Shown: positions 391-6,902 of the stretch, in pieces | Position numbering within the stretch: the first letter of the stretch is position 1 | Layout of the letters: every line of letters begins with the position of its first letter | NCBI GenBank assembly: GCA_025935735.1 | Contig: JAICUS010000331.1 | Coordinates: 1 to 6,902 of the forward strand | Direction of reading: 5' to 3' | From: Solirubrobacteraceae bacterium | GTDB taxonomy: Bacteria; Actinomycetota; Thermoleophilia; Solirubrobacterales; Solirubrobacteraceae | Length of the DNA stretch: 6,902 nt | Program-made: the position numbers and the translations under genes | Notes under the pieces: model-generated | What the model saw: only the letters and a program-made list of their open reading frames with translations | The model's database searches: none | What the model was told of the DNA's origin: nothing

Positions 391-1365
391 ATGGCGAGAA
401 CGCTGGTGACGGGCGGGGCGGGCTACATCGGCATGCTGCTGGCCGACGAGTTGCTGCGTGCGGGGCGCGAGGTCACGGTGCTCGACGTGCTGCTGCACGC
501 GCAGCGCGAGCACGCCGACGCGCTGCGCGAGCGCGGCGTGCGGCTGGTGCAGGGCGACATCCGCGACCCGGAGGCGCGCGACCGGGCCCTGGAGGACGCC
601 GAGGCGGTCGTGCACCTGGCCGCGATCGTCGGCGACCCGGCCTGCGCGCGCGACCCGCAGCTCGCCCGGGAGGTCAACGTCGACGCGGCGCTGGCGCTGG
701 CCGGCGACGCGGCACGCCACGGGGTCGAGCGCTTCGTGATGGCCAGCACGTGCTCGAACTACGGCCGGATGGCCGACCCGACCGTGCCGATCGACGAGAC
801 CGGCGTGCTCGCGCCGGTGTCGCTGTACGCCGAGCAGAAGGTGGCCGTGGAGAAGCACCTGCTCGCGCTCGACCCTGCGCCGTTCGCCGTCACCTGCCTG
901 CGCTTCGCCACCGTCTACGGCGCCGCGCCGCGGATGCGCTTCGACCTCACGGTCAACGAGTTCACCCGCGACCTGTGGGCCGACCGGCGCCTGGAGGTGT
1001 TCGGCGAGCAGTTCTGGCGGCCCTACGTCCACGTGCGCGACGCCGCGCGCGGGATCCGCACGGTGCTGGAGGCGCCGGTCGAACAGGTGTCCGGCGAGGT
1101 CTACAACGTCGGCGACTCTGCCGAGAACTATCGCAAGCTGGACCTCGTCGAGCGCATCCGCGAGCAGACCGACCGCGGCGAGGTCGCCTACGTTCACCGT
1201 GACGAAGATCCCCGCGACTACAAGGTGTCCTTCGAGAAGATCCGCGCCCGGCTGGGGTACGAGGTGACCATGACCGTCCCCAAGGGGATCGGCGAGGTGA
1301 TCGCGGAGCTCGACGCCGGCCGCTTCCCCGACTCCTTCGATGTCCGCTACCGGAACGTTCCCTGA
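391..1365 (+). CDS. NAD-dependent epimerase/dehydratase (extended SDR family)
   Basis: This 324-residue protein has the length and layout of extended short-chain dehydrogenases acting on nucleotide sugars. The N-terminal Rossmann motif is TGGAGYIG (G8-x2-G11-x2-G14), and the dinucleotide-contacting acidic residue is in VTVLD (D32). GDIRD (55-59) and VVHLAA (73-78) are standard SDR blocks. The catalytic set is ASTCSNYG (S119/T120 with S122) and YAEQK (Y146, K150). RFATVYG (171-177), WRPYVHVRDAAR (209-220) and VYNVGD (238-243) are typical of sugar-nucleotide epimerases/dehydratases. The family oxidises the sugar transiently with NAD(P), giving C4 or C3/C5 epimers, dehydrated keto-sugars or reduced sugars; which reaction applies here cannot be read off. 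The ATG is chosen because the Rossmann strand begins at residue 4. The end overlaps the next gene by 26 bases. The keto-sugar could feed the aminotransferases next door (inference). Confidence 0.9.
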   Translation: MARTLVTGGAGYIGMLLADELLRAGREVTVLDVLLHAQREHADALRERGVRLVQGDIRDPEARDRALEDAEAVVHLAAIVGDPACARDPQLAREVNVDAALALAGDAARHGVERFVMASTCSNYGRMADPTVPIDETGVLAPVSLYAEQKVAVEKHLLALDPAPFAVTCLRFATVYGAAPRMRFDLTVNEFTRDLWADRRLEVFGEQFWRPYVHVRDAARGIRTVLEAPVEQVSGEVYNVGDSAENYRKLDLVERIREQTDRGEVAYVHRDEDPRDYKVSFEKIRARLGYEVTMTVPKGIGEVIAELDAGRFPDSFDVRYRNVP

Positions 1366-2491
1366 GGTCCCGCTCTTCGACCTCCGGCTGGATCCGGAGG
1401 ACGTCGAGGCGGTGATGGACGTGCTGCGCTCGGGCTGGCTGACCATGGGCCCGCGCACGGCGGAGTTCGAGGCGGCGTTCGGGGCCCACCTGGGCGCCCG
1501 CCACGCCGTGGCCGTCTCCAGCTGCACGGCCGCGCTGCACCTGGCCTACCTGGCGGCCGGCGTCGGGCCGGGCGACGAGGTGATCGTGCCGGCGATGACG
1601 TTCGCCGCGACCGCGGCGGCCGCGCTGTACTGCGGCGCCACGCCGGTGTTCGCCGACATCCTCGGGCCGCACGACCTCTCGCTGGACCCCGATGACGTCG
1701 AGCGGCGGATCACCGACCGCACGCGCGCGGTGGCCGTCGTGCACTTCGCCGGCTATCCCGCGCCGGTCGAGCGGCTGCGGGCGCTGACCGACGCGCACGG
1801 GATCCCGCTGATCGAGGACGCCGCCCACTCGCCGGACGCCCACGTCGGCGGGCGCATGCTCGGCACCTGGGGGCTCGCCGGCGCGTTCAGCTTCTTCTCC
1901 AACAAGGTCCTGGCCTGCGGCGAGGGCGGCCTGCTGGCCACCGACGACGACGACGTGGCCGCGCTCGCGCGCTCGCTGCGCAGCCAGGGGATGACCTCGG
2001 GCTCCTGGAGCCGCTTCACCGGCGAGACCGACTCCTATGACGCGAGCGGGCTGGGGTTCAACTACCGGCTCGACGAGCCGCGGGCGGCGCTGCTGCTCTC
2101 GCGGCTGGGCCGGCTGGAGCGCGACGTCGCCCGCCGGCGCGAGCTGACCCGGGCCTACCGGGCCAAGCTGGCCGGCATCCCCGGGCTCTCGGTGCCCTAC
2201 ACCGGCGACGCCGTGGCGCACTCGACGTGCTACGTGATGCCGGTCGTGGTCGACGACGAGGCGCGGCGCGACGGCGTGCGCCGCCACCTGCGCGAGCGCC
2301 ACGGCGTGCAGACCTCGCTGTTCTATCCCGCGATCCACGAGTTCACCGCCTACCGCGAGCGCTTCGGGGAGTTGAGCCTGCCGCGCAGCGAGCACATCGC
2401 CCGCGCCGAGATCACGATCCCGCTGTTCCCGGAGATGGACGAGGCCACCCAGGACCGCGTCGTCGCCGCGCTGGCCGAGGCGCTGGCGTGA
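1340..2491 (+). CDS. DegT/DnrJ/EryC1/StrS aminotransferase, copy 1
   Basis: This 383-residue protein is a PLP-dependent sugar aminotransferase (fold type I, DegT/StrS family). It transfers an amino group, usually from glutamate, to a nucleotide keto-sugar. Visible blocks are SGWLTMGPRT (31-40), the cofactor-phosphate loop VSSCTAALHLA (59-69), GDEVIVPAMTF (78-88), the PLP-ring Asp and stacking His in EDAAHS (D160, H163), the Schiff-base lysine in FFSNK (K189) with CGEGG after it, and GFNYRLDEPRAAL (239-251). The C-terminal GVQTSLFYPAIHEFTAY block (322-338) is typical of DegT enzymes. It starts inside the epimerase gene (26-base overlap), and the next gene begins within its stop (GTGA). The segment SQGMTSGSWSRFTGETDSYD (215-234) departs from the RHRGH form kept in copy 2. 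Substrate and amination position are unknown. Confidence 0.93.
   Translation: MSATGTFPEVPLFDLRLDPEDVEAVMDVLRSGWLTMGPRTAEFEAAFGAHLGARHAVAVSSCTAALHLAYLAAGVGPGDEVIVPAMTFAATAAAALYCGATPVFADILGPHDLSLDPDDVERRITDRTRAVAVVHFAGYPAPVERLRALTDAHGIPLIEDAAHSPDAHVGGRMLGTWGLAGAFSFFSNKVLACGEGGLLATDDDDVAALARSLRSQGMTSGSWSRFTGETDSYDASGLGFNYRLDEPRAALLLSRLGRLERDVARRRELTRAYRAKLAGIPGLSVPYTGDAVAHSTCYVMPVVVDDEARRDGVRRHLRERHGVQTSLFYPAIHEFTAYRERFGELSLPRSEHIARAEITIPLFPEMDEATQDRVVAALAEALA
1424..1459 (+). repeat. 36-base direct repeat, copy in aminotransferase 1
   Basis: A 36-base stretch coding for LRSGWLTMGPRT is identical, including every third codon position, to 2557-2592 in the next aminotransferase gene. A second shared exact stretch of 27 bases lies at 2065-2091 and 3204-3230. 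Both fall in conserved protein blocks of a tandem gene pair, so they are most simply remnants of duplication or the outcome of extreme GC3 codon bias, not a mobile repeat. Confidence 0.85.
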
Positions 2492-3621
2492 GCTGGACCG
2501 TCCCGCTCACCGACGTCCACATGGCCGAGGAGGACCTCGCGGCGGTGGCCGAGTGCCTGCGCTCGGGCTGGCTGACCATGGGCCCGCGCACGCAGGCGTT
2601 CGAGGCGGCGGTGGCCGAGTGGACCGGCGCGGAGCACGCCGTGGCGGTGTCGAGCGGCACGGCGGCGCTGCACCTGGCCTGCGCCGCGCTGGAGCTCGGG
2701 CCGGGCGACGAGGTCATCCTGCCGGCGTTCACGTTCCTGGCCACGGCCCACGCGCCGCGTTACGTGGGCGCCCAGCCCGTCCTGGCCGACGTGGTGTCGG
2801 CGGAGGCGCCGAACCTCGACGTGGCCGACGTCGAGCGGCGGATCACGTCGCGCACGAAGGCCGTGATCGCCGTGCACATGTGCGGCTACGCGGCGGACAT
2901 GCCGGCGCTGCGCGCACTCTGCGCCGAGCGCGGCCTGCACCTGGTCGAGGACGCCGCGCAGGCGCTGGGCGCGCGGGTCTGCCCGGACGGCGCGCTCGCC
3001 GGCACGTCGGCGGCGCTCGGGTGCCTGTCGTTCTTCTCCAAGAAGCAGCTCTGCCTGGGCGAGGGCGGCATGGTCCTCACCGCCGACGAGGCGCTGGCCC
3101 GGCGCGTGCGGCTGCTGCGCAGCCACGCCATGACCTCCGGCACCTGGGACCGCCACCGAGGCCACGAGGACTCCTACGACGTCGTGGACATCGGCTTCAA
3201 CTTCCGGCTCGACGAGCCGCGGGCGGCGCTCGGGCTCTCCCGGCTGCCGCGGCTGACGGCGGCGATCGAGCACCGACGCGCGGTCGTGCGGGCCTACCGC
3301 GAGCAGCTGGGCGGCCTGGACGGCGTGACGCTGATGTGGGACGAGGCCGCGGTGGAAACCGGCTCGCATTTCGCCTTCCCGATCCTGTTCGCGTCCGGCG
3401 AGGCCCGCGTGCGCGCCCGGGAGAAGATGACCGCGCGCGGCGTCCAGACCACGCGCTACCCGGTGCTCCACGCGCTGACCGAGTACGCACCGCTTGCGCC
3501 CATGGGCTCGCTGCCGCGCGCCGAGGCCGCCGCCGACCGCCACCTCGCCCTGCCGCTGTCCTCGCACACCACGCCCGAGCAGGTCGAGCTCGTCGTGGAC
3601 GCGGTGCGGGCGGCGCTGTAG
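2488..3621 (+). CDS. DegT/DnrJ/EryC1/StrS aminotransferase, copy 2
   Basis: This 377-residue protein is a second sugar aminotransferase of the same family, alignable along its whole length with the preceding one and identical at roughly half the positions by eye. It carries SGWLTMGPRT (26-35), the phosphate loop VSSGTAALHLA (54-64), GDEVILPAFTF (73-83), EDAAQ (D155, with Q158 where copy 1 has His), FFSKK (K186 is the likely Schiff-base lysine, aligned with K189 of copy 1), GEGG and GFNFRLDEPRAAL (236-248). It retains MTSGTWDRHRGHEDSYDVV (215-233), the commoner form of this block as I recall it. The frame stays open upstream into copy 1, but GTG at 2488 is chosen because it forms a GTGA overlap with the copy 1 stop and aligns the N-termini (VPLTDV with VPLFDL). 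It could aminate a different position, or pair with copy 1 as a heterodimer (inference). Confidence 0.93.
   Translation: MSWTVPLTDVHMAEEDLAAVAECLRSGWLTMGPRTQAFEAAVAEWTGAEHAVAVSSGTAALHLACAALELGPGDEVILPAFTFLATAHAPRYVGAQPVLADVVSAEAPNLDVADVERRITSRTKAVIAVHMCGYAADMPALRALCAERGLHLVEDAAQALGARVCPDGALAGTSAALGCLSFFSKKQLCLGEGGMVLTADEALARRVRLLRSHAMTSGTWDRHRGHEDSYDVVDIGFNFRLDEPRAALGLSRLPRLTAAIEHRRAVVRAYREQLGGLDGVTLMWDEAAVETGSHFAFPILFASGEARVRAREKMTARGVQTTRYPVLHALTEYAPLAPMGSLPRAEAAADRHLALPLSSHTTPEQVELVVDAVRAAL
2557..2592 (+). repeat. 36-base direct repeat, copy in aminotransferase 2
   Basis: This is the partner of 1424-1459: identical over 36 bases and bounded by mismatches on both sides. It codes for the same 12 residues (LRSGWLTMGPRT) in the equivalent place of the paralogous enzyme. 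Confidence 0.85.
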
Positions 3622-4346
3622 TGCGCGGCCGCGTGCGCTCTCTCGTCCTGGCCGGCACGCGGCTGCTGCTGCGCGGCGACCGCCACGAGTGCCCGTGCTG
3701 CGGCGGGCGCTTCGCGCGCTTCATCGTGCGCGACGACGCCAGCCGCGTCTGCCCGCGCTGCCGCTCGCGCGAGCGCCAGCGGGTGCTGTGGCTCTACCTG
3801 CGGCGGGAGCTGGGGATCGAGGCGTCGGACGCCCGCGTGCTCCACCTCGCTCCCGAGCCGGCGCTGCACGAGCGGCTGCGGGCGCTGCCGCGGCTGCGCT
3901 ACGAGACCGGCGACCTCGCGCCGGGGCCGCTGGTCGACCGCACGATGGACGTCGAGCGGCTCCCGCATGAAGACGATTCGCTCGACCTCGTGCTGTGCAG
4001 CCACGTGCTCGAGCACGTCGCCGACGACGTGGGCGCGGCGCGCGAGCTGGCCCGCGTGCTCGCGCCGGGCGGGCTGGCGTTGGTCCAGGTGCCGGTCGAG
4101 CCCACCCAGGCGCGCACCTACGAGGACTTCTCGATCGACACGCCGGCGGGGCGCGAGCACGCCTTCGGGCAGGCCGACCACGTGCGCATCTACGCCGCCG
4201 ACGTGATCGACCGGCTGCGCTCGGGCGGGCTCGATGTGACCCTGGTCCCGTACGCGGACGAGGTCCCGGCGGAGTTGCGCTTCCGCTGCCTGCTGGCCGA
4301 CCGCGGGCGCCGCCCCGGCTCCGACATCTACCGGTGCGCCGCGTGA
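3621..4346 (+). CDS. Zinc-ribbon class I SAM-dependent methyltransferase (Methyltransf_11-like)
   Basis: This 241-residue protein opens with a basic segment and then a four-cysteine ribbon, ECPCCGG (C24, C27) and VCPRC (C44, C47), spaced CxxC-16-CxxC, which should bind zinc. The methyltransferase core follows. The SAM loop is unusual, VLHLAPEPAL (73-82) in place of the textbook GxGxG. The acidic strand end is YETGDLAPG (95-103). The Methyltransf_11 hallmark LDLVLCSHVLEHVADD (121-136) and RVLAPGGLALVQVP (145-158) come next. The tail FGQADHVRIYAADVIDRL (172-189) matches, from memory, a family common in polysaccharide loci. The acceptor is unknown; a sugar or glycan is likely from the neighbours. 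GTG at 3621 overlaps the preceding TAG by one base. GTG at 3633 is an alternative and would leave the cysteines intact. The next gene starts within its stop through GTGA. Confidence 0.87.
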   Translation: MRGRVRSLVLAGTRLLLRGDRHECPCCGGRFARFIVRDDASRVCPRCRSRERQRVLWLYLRRELGIEASDARVLHLAPEPALHERLRALPRLRYETGDLAPGPLVDRTMDVERLPHEDDSLDLVLCSHVLEHVADDVGAARELARVLAPGGLALVQVPVEPTQARTYEDFSIDTPAGREHAFGQADHVRIYAADVIDRLRSGGLDVTLVPYADEVPAELRFRCLLADRGRRPGSDIYRCAA

Positions 4347-5200
4347 CGCGCCCGACGGGCACCTGGACCGACCGGCTGCGCCGCGCCTGGCGCGCCCGGC
4401 TCGGCCGCTTCGGCCGGCTCGACCACCTCGCCCACCGGGCGTACTTCCACTGGCAGCGGGCGCTGTTCGCGGTGCGGCTGAACGCTGACGCGCGCAGTGT
4501 CGTTCGCTACCTGCGCGTGGAGAGCCGCTGGGCGGGCCCGGAGGCCGTGCCGGTGCGGGTGCGGCCGCTGGACGGCGCCACGATCTGGCTGCGCCCGCGG
4601 ACGACCGACCCGATCATGCTGCGCGACACGTTCCGCGACCGGGTGCACCCGCCGCCGCCGGAGATCGCCGCGCGCGGCGTGCGCTGGATCGTCGACCTGG
4701 GCGCGAACGCGGGCGTGACGGTGGCGGACAACGCGCGGCGCTTCCCGGCCGCGCGGATCGTCGCCGTCGAGCTCGACCCGGGCAACGCCGAGGCCGCGCG
4801 GCGCAACACGCGGCCGTGGGCCGACCGGGTGGAGATCCTGCAGGGCGCGGTGTGGGAGTCAGACGGCGAGGTCCCGTTCGTGCACGAGACCGGCCACGAG
4901 TACGGCTTCCGCGTCGCCGAGGGCGCGGCGTCGACGACGCGGGCGCTGTCGCTGGACACGATCCTGTCGCACGTGCCGGAGGGCGAGCGGGTGGACTACG
5001 TGAAGATGGACATCGAGGGCGTGGAGGCGCGGCTGCTCTCCGGCCCGGCCGCCGCCTGGACCGCGCGGATCGACTCGATCTCGCTGCAGGTCCACGACCC
5101 GTACACGCTGGGCGACTGCGCGCGCGACCTGGCGGCGCTGGGGTTCAGCGCGCGCGTGGACCCGCGGCGGATGAACTACATCGTGGGGGTGCGGACGTGA
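4343..5200 (+). CDS. FkbM-family SAM-dependent methyltransferase (complete)
   Basis: This 285-residue FkbM (Methyltransf_21) enzyme would O-methylate a sugar or related acceptor using SAM. The SAM-binding motif I is WIVDLGANAGVT (115-126), the acidic ribose contact is AVELDPGN (151 region starts AVELD; E153), and the family signature is YVKMDIEGVEARLL (219-232), with K221, D223 and E225. DTILSHV (205-211) is the usual helix before it. About 110 residues precede the core. The first 50 are rich in Arg, Trp and His and look amphipathic and basic, with no clear signal peptide; contact with membrane or lipid-linked glycan is possible (inference). GTG at 4343 is chosen for its GTGA overlap with the preceding stop; GTG at 4334 would add three residues. 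Its own stop overlaps the DUF1697 start in the same way. It is the second FkbM gene in the window. Confidence 0.88.
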   Translation: MTRPTGTWTDRLRRAWRARLGRFGRLDHLAHRAYFHWQRALFAVRLNADARSVVRYLRVESRWAGPEAVPVRVRPLDGATIWLRPRTTDPIMLRDTFRDRVHPPPPEIAARGVRWIVDLGANAGVTVADNARRFPAARIVAVELDPGNAEAARRNTRPWADRVEILQGAVWESDGEVPFVHETGHEYGFRVAEGAASTTRALSLDTILSHVPEGERVDYVKMDIEGVEARLLSGPAAAWTARIDSISLQVHDPYTLGDCARDLAALGFSARVDPRRMNYIVGVRT

Positions 5201-5724
5201 GGCTCGTGGTGTTCCTGCGCGGCATCAACGTCGGCGGCCACAAGCGGATCTCGATGGCCGACCTGCGCGGGCTGCTCTCCGACCGCGGCTACGCGGACGT
5301 CAAGACGTACCTGCAGAGCGGCAACGCGGTGGTGACGAGCGACCGCTCGCCGGCCGAGGCCGAGGCGGACATCTCGGCGGCGATCGCCTCGGCGCTCGGC
5401 CATGAGGTGGCGGTCGTCGTGCGCACCGCCGACCAGCTCGCGAAGGTCGTGCGCGACGACCCGTTCGCCGACGTGCGCACCGATCACCGCTTCCACCAGG
5501 CGGTCTTCCTCGGCGGCAAGCCCGACGCGAAGGCGATCGCCGCGCTGCGGGACACCGACTTCTCGCCCGAGCAGCTCGTCGTCGCCCCGGGCGTGCTGCA
5601 CGCCTGGTGCCCGGACGGCGTCAACGACAGCCCGCTGATCAAGGCGCTGACCAAGGTGCGCACCACCGCCACCGCGCGCAACTGGCGCACGGTGGAGAAG
5701 CTGCTGGAGCTGTCTGCCGGCTAG
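5197..5724 (+). CDS. DUF1697 domain-containing protein
   Basis: This 175-residue protein spans the usual length of the DUF1697 family. The N-terminal signature is clear: VVFLRGINVGGHKRISM (4-20), DLRGLL, then DVKTYLQSGNAVV (34-46). The C-terminal end SPLIKALTKVRTTATARNWRTVEKL (residues about 145-170) is also typical, with the RNWRTV strand-helix turn that closes the fold. I know of no established biochemical function for the family; members are small cytoplasmic proteins found widely in actinobacteria and firmicutes. GTG at 5197 overlaps the FkbM stop (GTGA), and an N-terminus of MRLVVFLRGINVGG is just what the family shows, so the start is well supported. It is therefore probably cotranslated with the sugar genes, although no link to them is obvious. 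Its TAG lies in a CTAG that also ends the opposing cupin gene. Confidence 0.92.
   Translation: MRLVVFLRGINVGGHKRISMADLRGLLSDRGYADVKTYLQSGNAVVTSDRSPAEAEADISAAIASALGHEVAVVVRTADQLAKVVRDDPFADVRTDHRFHQAVFLGGKPDAKAIAALRDTDFSPEQLVVAPGVLHAWCPDGVNDSPLIKALTKVRTTATARNWRTVEKLLELSAG
5721..5724. other. Shared palindromic CTAG: stop codons of two convergent genes
   Basis: CTAG reads TAG on the plus strand (5722-5724, ending DUF1697) and TAG on the minus strand (5723-5721, ending the cupin gene). The two genes therefore overlap tail to tail by four bases, leaving no intergenic DNA for a terminator. Transcription from either side must end inside the other gene, or the two mRNAs must be complementary at their 3' ends. 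Confidence 0.9.
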
Positions 5725-6137
5725 CGCTTCTGCGCGGCGTCCGGCGACGCCTCCCAGAAGTCGTCGAGCTTCGTCGCGTCGTGCTTGCCGAGCCGCCGCG
5801 ACAGCGCCCACATCTCCACGGGCTCGTCGCCCTCGTTGCGGTGCGAGCGCGGCGTGCGCGGCGCAACCCGGACGGCCGCGGGCGCGCCGACCCGCTCGAT
5901 CTCGTCGCCGAAGCGCATGGTCAGCGTCCCGCGGGTCACGAGGTAGAGCTCCTCGATCTCGGCGTGATAGTGGCCGGTGCCCTGCTCGAAGTCGCTGTGC
6001 GGCGGGACGCGGATGAGCGTCGCCGCGAGCTGCTCGCAGCCCAGCGCCGCCGTCAGCCGGCGGAACTCGCCGGGGACGTCGCTGCCCGCGTAGTGGTCCT
6101 CGACCTCGTCGGGGGCGACGATCGCGTAGTCGGTCAT
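5721..6137 (-). CDS. Single-domain cupin protein
   Basis: This 138-residue protein is a small cupin of the conserved-barrel type. Cupin motif 1 is visible as GHYHAEIEELYLVTRG (55-70): H56 and H58 are metal ligands, E62 or E63 supplies the third, and G70 closes the motif. Motif 2 is VAPRTPRSHRN (91-101), with H99 as the fourth ligand. A divalent metal is therefore expected. No catalytic class can be named; such proteins range from small dioxygenases and isomerases to sugar-binding or sensor proteins. ATG at 6137 is chosen because MTDYAIVAPDEV gives a normal length and the upstream open frame is Arg/Pro-rich with no family resemblance. AGGGGG abuts the ATG, too close for a standard ribosome site. 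It is transcribed divergently from the LysR-hydrolase gene, which may regulate it (inference). Confidence 0.88.
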   Translation of the reverse strand: MTDYAIVAPDEVEDHYAGSDVPGEFRRLTAALGCEQLAATLIRVPPHSDFEQGTGHYHAEIEELYLVTRGTLTMRFGDEIERVGAPAAVRVAPRTPRSHRNEGDEPVEMWALSRRLGKHDATKLDDFWEASPDAAQKR

Positions 6138-6148
6138 CCCCCTAGGCC

Positions 6149-6152
6149 TATC
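6149..6152 (-). promoter_or_regulatory. Candidate -10-like GATA box before the cupin gene
   Basis: On the minus strand GATA (within GTGATAGGCC) lies 11 bases before the cupin ATG. It resembles the GATA box before the epimerase gene in position and sequence. It does not match TANNNT cleanly, and no -35 hexamer is visible. It overlaps the 8-base palindrome TAGGCCTA at 6143-6150. Confidence 0.2.
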
Positions 6153-6180
6153 ACCCGGGGCGGGGTCCGGTCCACGCCGC

Positions 6181-6198
6181 CCGCTGCGGGGGCAGCGG
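6181..6198. repeat. Inverted repeat in the divergent region (possible operator)
   Basis: Arms CCGCTGC (6181-6187) and GCAGCGG (6192-6198) are perfect reverse complements around a GGGG spacer. The right arm overlaps a second dyad, CAGCG-G-CGCTG (6193-6203). It sits between two divergent genes, so a dimeric regulator could bind here. Short GC-only dyads arise readily by chance in DNA of this composition. No T-run follows, so it is not an intrinsic terminator. Confidence 0.4.
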
Positions 6199-6340
6199 CG
6201 CTGGTGCGCGCGCAGCCGGCGACGGGCGATGGCGGGGTGGGTCATGGCGGCGATGCTGGCGCGGAGACGCGCGAAAGGGAAAGGCCGATCGCGCATCGCG
6301 GTCGTGCGGAATCGGCATCACCGGCGCGAGCGGGGCGGGG

Positions 6341-6346
6341 CATACT
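6341..6346 (+). promoter_or_regulatory. Candidate -10 box (CATACT) before the LysR-hydrolase gene
   Basis: CATACT matches four of the six TATAAT positions, including the A at position 2 and the T at position 6, and is the only AT-rich string near the start. It ends 7 bases before the GTG at 6354, so the transcript would start at or next to the start codon and be leaderless. This fits the lack of a Shine-Dalgarno sequence at normal spacing. No -35 element is evident. Confidence 0.3.
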
Positions 6347-6353
6347 CAGCGGC

Positions 6354-6902
6354 GTGGCCGGCGAGGTCGTCCCCTTCCCCCAGGCTCCCGACGGCGTCGA
6401 GATCCGCCACCTGCGGGCGTTCGTGGCGGTCGCCGAGGAGCTGAACTTCAGCCGCGCCGCCGCCCGGCTGTACGTCTCCCAGCCGGCGCTCAGCCGCCAG
6501 ATCCGCGCGCTCGAGCGGCTGCTCGGCTGCGAGCTGCTGCGCCGCTCGACGCACCGGGTGGAGCTGACCGTCGCCGGCAGCGCGCTGCTCGACCGCGCGC
6601 GCCGGCTGCTGGGCGACCTCGACGAGGCGATCGCCGCCACGCAGTCCGTCGGCGGCGAGCTGGCGAACCGGATGGCGACGCTGTGGGCGCCGGTGCTCGA
6701 GGTCGTGGCGGCCGATCGCGACATCCAGGAGACGCGCGCCGCCTACGAGAGCCTGCTCGCCCAGGTGCCGATGCCCGACGACATCCAGGTCCGGCCCGCC
6801 CTGGCCGGCGGCGTGTCCTCCCTGGAGGTCAGCGCCGGCAGCGAGCTGGGCACCGCGATCCTCTACCTGCACGGCGGCGGCTACATCGTCGGCTCGTCCT
6901 AC
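6354..6902 (+). CDS. LysR-type HTH domain fused to a hormone-sensitive-lipase-type alpha/beta hydrolase (3' end outside window)
   Basis: One uninterrupted frame of 183 codons runs from GTG to the right edge. Residues about 16-78 are a LysR-type winged helix: EIRHLRAFVAVAEELNFSRA, then AAARLYVSQPALSRQIRALE (recognition helix) and LGCELLRRSTHRVELTVAG (wing). A linker helix follows (about 79-98). A canonical regulator would then begin its periplasmic-binding-type effector domain. Instead RAAYESLLAQVPMPDDI (128-144) leads to a GGVSSLEV strand and ILYLHGGGYIVGSS (169-182), the oxyanion-hole HGGG (H173-G176) of the hormone-sensitive-lipase (Abhydrolase_3) family, at the usual distance from that family's N-terminus. 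The catalytic Ser, Asp and His would lie beyond the window. GTG is chosen because I find no nearer in-frame ATG or GTG and the HTH begins soon after it. The product is probably a cytoplasmic regulator that senses or hydrolyses an ester-like ligand (inference). Confidence 0.85.
   Translation, partial: MAGEVVPFPQAPDGVEIRHLRAFVAVAEELNFSRAAARLYVSQPALSRQIRALERLLGCELLRRSTHRVELTVAGSALLDRARRLLGDLDEAIAATQSVGGELANRMATLWAPVLEVVAADRDIQETRAAYESLLAQVPMPDDIQVRPALAGGVSSLEVSAGSELGTAILYLHGGGYIVGSSY

Follow-up and report, generated by a model that had tools for sequence, protein, structure and literature searches.

A LysR-type DNA-binding domain fused to a probably active hormone-sensitive-lipase-type esterase, with a conserved predicted operator between divergent promoters, in actinobacteria

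We detected in actinobacteria a gene that joins the winged helix of LysR-type transcriptional regulators (LTTRs) in frame to a hydrolase of the hormone-sensitive lipase (HSL) type. It is likely, judging from comparison of the fusion loci, that the product is a LysR-type one-component regulator that uses a probably live HSL esterase as its sensor and acts at one 46-bp operator placed between divergent promoters. What the comparison establishes is the fusion itself, the kept catalytic residues, the element with its fixed spacing, and the joint occurrence of gene and element. The gene lies at the end of the window, by which we mean the whole stretch of 6,902 nucleotides of Solirubrobacteraceae DNA that was analysed.

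The 5' part of the fusion gene (6354..6902, forward strand; 183 of about 400 codons) is open from a GTG at 6354 to the window end, where the gene exits, and its 183 residues are read without a stop. GTG 6354 is taken as the start because a -10-like hexamer, CATACT (6341..6346, forward strand), is located 7 nt upstream. Such a hexamer, sought with a permissive rule (A at position 2, T at position 6), precedes an ATG or GTG by 5-9 nt on the fusion side of all 25 element-bearing loci. Residues 17-75 (6402..6578, forward strand) form the HTH_1 winged helix, with a Pfam score of 84.3 bits against a cut-off of 26.6. The linker helix was placed at residues 73-119 (6570..6710, forward strand) by analogy with a model of the Solirubrobacter soli homologue, since residues 1-183 of the two proteins align over 549 bases with equal numbering. 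The HSL-type alpha/beta hydrolase domain begins at residue 121 and runs to residue 183 (6714..6902, forward strand), as indicated by PDB matches, relatives and an alignment with the esterase Est8. Its oxyanion-hole motif HGGG (residues 173-176; 6870..6881, forward strand) was read from the translation and is conserved in relatives, and HGGGY covers residues 173-177 (6870-6884) of the frame.

Using PDB, we retrieved 69 distinct sequences for the window protein, and 15 of the 60 shown are esterases (EstD11, E40, Est8, EstE5 and others) that match within residues 118-182 with E-values of 9e-7 to 2.5e-3. The rest of those shown comprise LysR-type regulators, aligned through their DNA-binding part, and a viral protein at chance level (E 0.13). 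Pfam gave no hydrolase match in the 183-residue piece, because the window ends there: the last visible residues are HGGGYIVGSSY and the catalytic Ser, Asp and His fall beyond it. Statements on the catalytic triad consequently rest on relatives, as the 3' part of the gene lies outside the sequence. The open frame, the HTH_1 score and the esterase matches bear out the in-frame joining of a LysR winged helix to an HSL region that the earlier note had read from the letters of the window.

Ten genome contigs from eight genera match the window protein from residue 1-5 to residue 183 with 52-79% identity and some small gaps, the nearest relative being that of Solirubrobacter soli (79%), and none of the other 70 loci in the same genome match list aligned past residue 154. 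The frames of all ten contigs continue unbroken for 392-431 codons from the matched start, with no stop or frameshift between the domains. All five full-length copies scanned with Pfam carry HTH_1 and Abhydrolase_3 (152-184 bits). The LysR substrate-binding (PBP-II) domain is absent from these five, and Abhydrolase_3 spans that part of the protein, in agreement with the proposal in the earlier note of a one-component regulator in which an esterase fold replaces the LysR effector domain. A search with the S. soli protein returned 6964 of 7998 scored candidates at E 1e-3, and both domains are present in all of the best 120 of these 6964 matches (query included). Homologues with this pair of domains, for which the earlier note had proposed a domain-architecture search, thus exist. 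Public databases label the fusions "alpha/beta hydrolase fold domain-containing protein" or "LysR family transcriptional regulator", among others. An assembly or frameshift artefact, which the cutting of the gene in mid-frame by the window might suggest, has a negligible probability: the same open frame occurs in many assemblies of different genera and refutes it for the family. On the evidence of these genomes, the fusion is confirmed as a genuine gene architecture.

The fusion is sporadic in actinobacteria. It was identified in 1 of 199 genomes of a class sample, in 1 of 396 genomes of a phylum sample (the anchor genome itself) and in 3/146, 4/200, 5/200, 5/38, 2/297 and 3/22 genomes of six family samples; every sample includes its own anchor genome (two of the first ten fusion genomes in the sample of 22), and in the large samples the best 4-12 candidates per genome were scored and fusions may be missed. 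A tree of the hydrolase part was built with 30 fusions and 17 other HSL genes, the latter drawn from nine genomes among the first ten with a fusion; the fusions group in a single clade (100/100), which fits a single origin. Duplicates were left out before counting (L081, L087, L090 and L097, identical with L001, L002, L004 and L010; L098, L101 and L102, identical with L003, L007 and L009).

The earlier note had allowed for either a dead enzyme acting as a receptor or a live one, and had suggested looking beyond HGGGY for the GxSxG nucleophile with its Asp and His. These residues are present in full-length relatives. We aligned 129 full-length fusions (120 protein-search matches and nine loci, in S. 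soli numbering), many of them close relatives of the window protein, and found the oxyanion HGG in 129/129 and its fourth Gly in 126/129. Ser242 and His360 are each conserved in all 129, and position 330 carries Asp in 127 proteins and Glu in the other 2. Alignment of the S. soli fusion with Est8 places Ser242 on the Ser of GDSAG and His360 on the His of HVWH; Est8 itself has Glu at the position of Asp330, so Glu is not odd there. The model of the S. soli fusion (mean pLDDT 85.9, 46 sequences) consists of the winged helix, a 47-residue linker helix and the HSL domain. EstD11 is its best solved match in Foldseek (41% identity, TM-score 0.87 by target), and the rows shown have identities of 36-42% for EstD11, 39% for Est8 and 36-38% for E40.

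Because the catalytic residues are kept in relatives, the hydrolase domain is probably a live esterase rather than a dead receptor; the live branch of the earlier alternative thereby gains and the dead branch, which would fit a loss of these residues, recedes. A receptor of the GID1 kind, whose esterase fold binds a ligand that it no longer cuts, would suit an esterase fold within a regulator, and GID1 is thought to descend from HSL enzymes. GID1 has, however, lost the active-site His (both points from passages of PMC3531792), whereas the fusions retain His and Ser in 129/129 and Asp in 127/129, which makes such a receptor quite improbable. The conserved residues also include Met at position 107 (121/129) and at position 127 (105/129), which could serve as internal starts for a free-standing hydrolase; close relatives of the window protein predominate in this set. 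Two separate proteins are nevertheless very improbable, as the linker keeps a length of 97 residues in 105/129 fusions and contains conserved residues such as TQSVGGE, none of the ten first loci shows a break in the frame, and the conserved predicted operator described below favours a fused product.

An ungapped 46-bp element adjoins the fusion gene in 25 of 26 fusion loci (6277..6322 of the window, forward strand). This predicted operator lies inside 6138-6353, the region where the earlier note had placed the target DNA. Columns 29-41 hold a T-N11-A LysR box, TGC-N7-GCA (6305..6317, forward strand), whose T (column 29) and A (column 41) are present in 25/25 elements, as in the T-N11-A rule of LysR sites. 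Columns 7-19 hold a second, half-conserved box, GGC-N7-GCA (6283..6295, forward strand), which is 22 bp from the first, weaker, and its mirror. Around column 24 the element reads as a pseudo-palindrome with 58% complementarity, compared with 55% about the centre of the T-N11-A box and 13-44% about other centres. Mean information is 1.24 bits per column within the element vs 0.18-0.23 outside. A site in the Solirubrobacter family (L083:1413-1458, reverse strand), with a perfect 15-bp inverted repeat around one base, is the cleanest found.

A search for conserved neighbours by all-against-all BLAST of crude ORFs was swamped by shadow ORFs, and it was the reading of upstream regions that revealed the element. 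We built a weight matrix from ten loci (the window and L001-L009), which scores 33-63 bits in 15/15 further non-redundant fusion loci; in the retrieved DNA (1.95 million positions) no unrelated place scores above 12.2 bits, and reverse-strand readings of the element sites themselves give values of 8-22 (maximum 22.3). The test was not blind, as the 15 further upstream regions had been read before the site-locating consensus was written; the matrix itself is independent of them, being made from the first ten only. Chance as the source of the element is rejected by the 15/15 further loci and by the reversed-pattern controls given below. Shared recent ancestry was also considered and set aside, as the flanks are not conserved and the fusion proteins, leaving out that of the window, are 50-62% identical to the S. 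soli protein.

The one fusion locus in which the element is absent belongs to Kribbella catacumbae (L010:5700-5985). Fusion and element are both present in four further genomes of its family. Regulation of the K. catacumbae fusion must differ from that of its family members.

Whole genomes were scanned with the element pattern, allowing up to 3 mismatches, and with the reversed pattern as control. At the fusion gene, the pattern is present once in 24 of 25 fusion genomes and missing in G010; a single second site among the 25 was found, in Herbihabitans, and the reversed pattern gave 0 matches in the same genomes. In a sample of 200 genomes from the Herbihabitans family, pattern and fusion are found in the same five genomes and in no others (5/5 vs 0/195; Fisher 4e-10, a value that ignores kinship). 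Among 200 genomes of the Nonomuraea rhizosphaerae family, the pattern is present in 4/4 genomes with the fusion and in 2/196 without it, both stray sites having 3 mismatches. One of these (L148, in G327, a genome with no fusion match) adjoins an MFS gene and RibD-like pieces; the MFS gene shares 72% identity with its counterpart at a Kribbella-family fusion locus, and the site looks like a relic of the module. The other lies inside an ORF and may be due to chance.

The spacing of the promoters around the element differs between its two sides. On the divergent side, which carries GGGAAA, an A-N3-T hexamer is located 18 or 19 nt from the element in 25/25 loci (CAGCAT in the window, 6253..6258, reverse strand), compared with a mean of 0.76 of 25 loci for other offsets. 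These hexamers match TATAAT poorly and are regular only at A2 and T6. In 17/25 loci an accepted ORF of 113 aa or more opens with an ATG or GTG at a distance of 30-32 nt from the element (L095 being counted by an in-frame ATG), and no accepted gene start was found at that distance in the other 8; the 119-aa frame of L099, 32 nt from the element, was left uncounted as it overlaps an SMP-30-like frame. From these distances we infer that the divergent transcript, like that of the fusion gene, may be leaderless.

If +1 is set at the divergent ATG at 31 nt, the centres of the T-N11-A box and of the second box fall at -66 and -44, respectively, and GGGAAA extends from -32 to -37. The hexamer at 18/19 nt would therefore put the T-N11-A box near -66, in the classical position for a LysR activator. 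In classical LysR systems, as outlined in parts of PMC4834489, a T-N11-A site lies near -65 of the divergent target and overlaps the regulator's own promoter, a second site lies towards -35, and the target is activated while the regulator represses itself. Spacing on the fusion side is variable, with 9 to 45 nt between A41 and the -10-like hexamer (22-25 nt in 16/25 loci). Rigid spacing on one side and loose spacing on the other suggest that the divergent operon is activated and that the fusion gene is under looser control, probably repression. Helical phasing of the fusion promoter was tried as proof of activation and dropped, being weak (p 0.07 on distinct offsets).

The extra site in Herbihabitans (L127:1501-2850) is on another contig than the fusion gene and has, on its GGGAAA side, a hexamer at 19 nt and an ATG at 31 nt, a geometry that supports the reading of activation on the divergent side. 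An ORF that looks leaderless and then, in another frame, a GDSL lipase domain follow. This GDSL-region gene is broken or misread.

PutA, BirA and other trigger enzymes also carry an enzyme and a DNA-binding domain in one chain, their folds being different from those of the fusion, and act mainly as autorepressors. The fusion could be a trigger enzyme of the PutA kind, in which the protein serves chiefly as an esterase and uses its HTH merely to silence its own gene until substrate appears. The live-looking catalytic residues of the relatives, the usual single element per genome at the fusion gene itself (24/25) and the variation of the divergent genes among species would all agree with it. We regard it as unlikely, as the spacing is rigid at the divergent promoter (25/25) and variable on the fusion gene's own side, and as the extra element of Herbihabitans faces a different gene.

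The divergent operon in 15 of 25 loci encodes a miniature hydrolase of the same fold as the fusion, as first gene in 14 loci and as second in L086 (135-199 aa where the full frame was taken). Pfam detected Abhydrolase_3 in nine of ten small proteins scanned, six above its cut-off, and the remaining miniatures were assigned by tblastn to a tested one and by alignment. The 113-aa ORF of L008 is in the right place and is a doubtful 16th, because neither Pfam nor tblastn against the other miniatures gives a match. A profile search gave 172 matches. We aligned 127 proteins: 15 small locus proteins (L008 included) and 112 matches of at most 230 aa, from the best 120 of the 172 with 8 longer ones left out, partly the same proteins as those of the loci. 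The nucleophile position in the 127 holds Ala in 97, Gly in 28, a gap in 2 and Ser in none; the oxyanion His is found in 0/127, and the column of the catalytic His shows a gap in 126 proteins and Lys in the remaining one. One 164-aa miniature was modelled with pLDDT 93.0 and eight strands, and its TM-scores with HSL esterases are 0.68-0.81 by query among the 50 matches shown. The miniature thus modelled looks like a folded pseudo-enzyme without catalytic residues. That the miniatures are mere debris was ruled out by the 172 profile matches and the model.

An MFS transporter, a RibD-type reductase or a sigma factor accompanies the miniature in 14/15 loci. Over the 25 loci, the other divergent genes encode MFS transporters (9), RibD_C proteins (7) and ECF sigma factors (3), and more rarely SMP-30-like proteins (2), hydrolases with a signal-like N-terminus (2), the cupin of the window (1) and an NmrA-like protein (1). 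Pfam was run for L084 and L094 (MFS), L005, L086 and L091 (RibD_C), L001 (sigma), L003 and L099 (SMP-30-like, slightly above and slightly below the cut-off, respectively), L088 and L089 (hydrolase) and the window; the remaining divergent genes were labelled by similarity, and "NmrA" by eye. As these genes vary by species, no single pathway is implied. The presence of MFS, RibD-type reductase or ECF sigma genes alongside the miniature suggests that the divergent operon handles a toxic or signalling ester. In the window, an ORF with a cupin domain detected by Pfam (5721..6245, reverse strand; ATG 31 nt from the element, a start further in at MTDYA being equally likely) occupies the place of the miniature hydrolase of other loci. 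The earlier note foresaw neither the divergent promoter with its fixed position nor the dead miniature hydrolase.

Taken as the probable sensor-esterase regulator, the fusion protein would bind the 46-bp element through its LysR half and its HSL domain would sense an ester or lactone. Ligand binding or covalent attack could alter the contact with DNA, the attack perhaps being nucleophilic as proposed for DAD2 in passages of PMC3531792. Given the positions of the two boxes (-66 for T-N11-A, -44 for the second) and of GGGAAA (about -35), the regulator should activate the divergent operon in classical LysR fashion; as the element abuts the promoter of the fusion gene, it should also control itself. 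Hydrolysis, or turnover, might end the signal. The dead miniature hydrolase, at a guess, may be a ligand sink, a partner of the sensor domain or a means of feedback. A more specific version is possible and is offered here as a tentative proposal: the switch would read its signal by hydrolysis, a covalent or product-bound esterase would set the DNA-bound state, turnover would reset it, and the miniature, produced once the divergent promoter is activated, would exert feedback by trapping ligand or pairing with the sensor.

With LTTRs the fusion system shares HTH_1, the linker helix, a divergent target and a T-N11-A box beside its own promoter, about -65 of the target as in the layout given in parts of PMC4834489 (-66 if the divergent ATG at 31 nt is +1). 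It is set apart from the LysR definition because its effector domain is an HSL hydrolase, found instead of the LysR substrate-binding domain in 5/5 copies scanned. With the HSL or family IV esterases EstD11, Est8 and E40 it shares fold, HGGG, GDS-G, Asp and His, and it differs from them in carrying a DNA-binding domain and a predicted operator of its own. The family, by its sequence, is LysR-like in the DNA half and the promoter layout, and HSL in the sensor half.

The plant proteins DAD2/D14 and GID1 likewise use an alpha/beta hydrolase fold as receptor, which we draw on as an analogy only. They act via partner proteins, whereas the fusion holds receptor and DNA-binding domain in one chain. 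The active-site His whose loss would mark a dead receptor like GID1 is present in 129/129 fusions; DAD2 keeps its triad and cuts a ligand analogue, according to passages of PMC3531792. BzdR is another case in which an enzyme fold, similar to shikimate kinase, was recruited as the effector domain of a regulator; as described in parts of PMC3602430, it involves other HTH and enzyme families and a loss of activity on its path, whereas the fusion keeps its residues.

No description of a LysR-HSL fusion was found among the matches listed in the open literature. The apparent close case in PMC7837296 contains no hydrolase in the sections available, and the main text of a LysR survey with 24 companion domains (PMC5882156), as far as it was accessible, does not mention hydrolases. 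If the proposed regulator is correct, a LysR regulator can exchange its sensor for a working enzyme. One protein and one 46-bp site would make a compact test system for whether alpha/beta hydrolase signalling works by binding or by catalysis. The same choice is debated for plant strigolactone receptors, and if the signal is read by hydrolysis, the fusion would be a prokaryotic counterpart of a strigolactone receptor fused to a DNA-binding output. The loci also indicate a family of dead miniature hydrolases linked to a genetic partner, and the transcription factor and its operator could serve as an ester or lactone biosensor.

Upstream in the window, the genes at 391-5724 resemble a sugar-nucleotide or glycan set. 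Labelled by eye, their frames correspond to an NAD-dependent epimerase, two DegT/DnrJ-type aminotransferases, methyltransferase-like proteins and a DUF1697-like protein.
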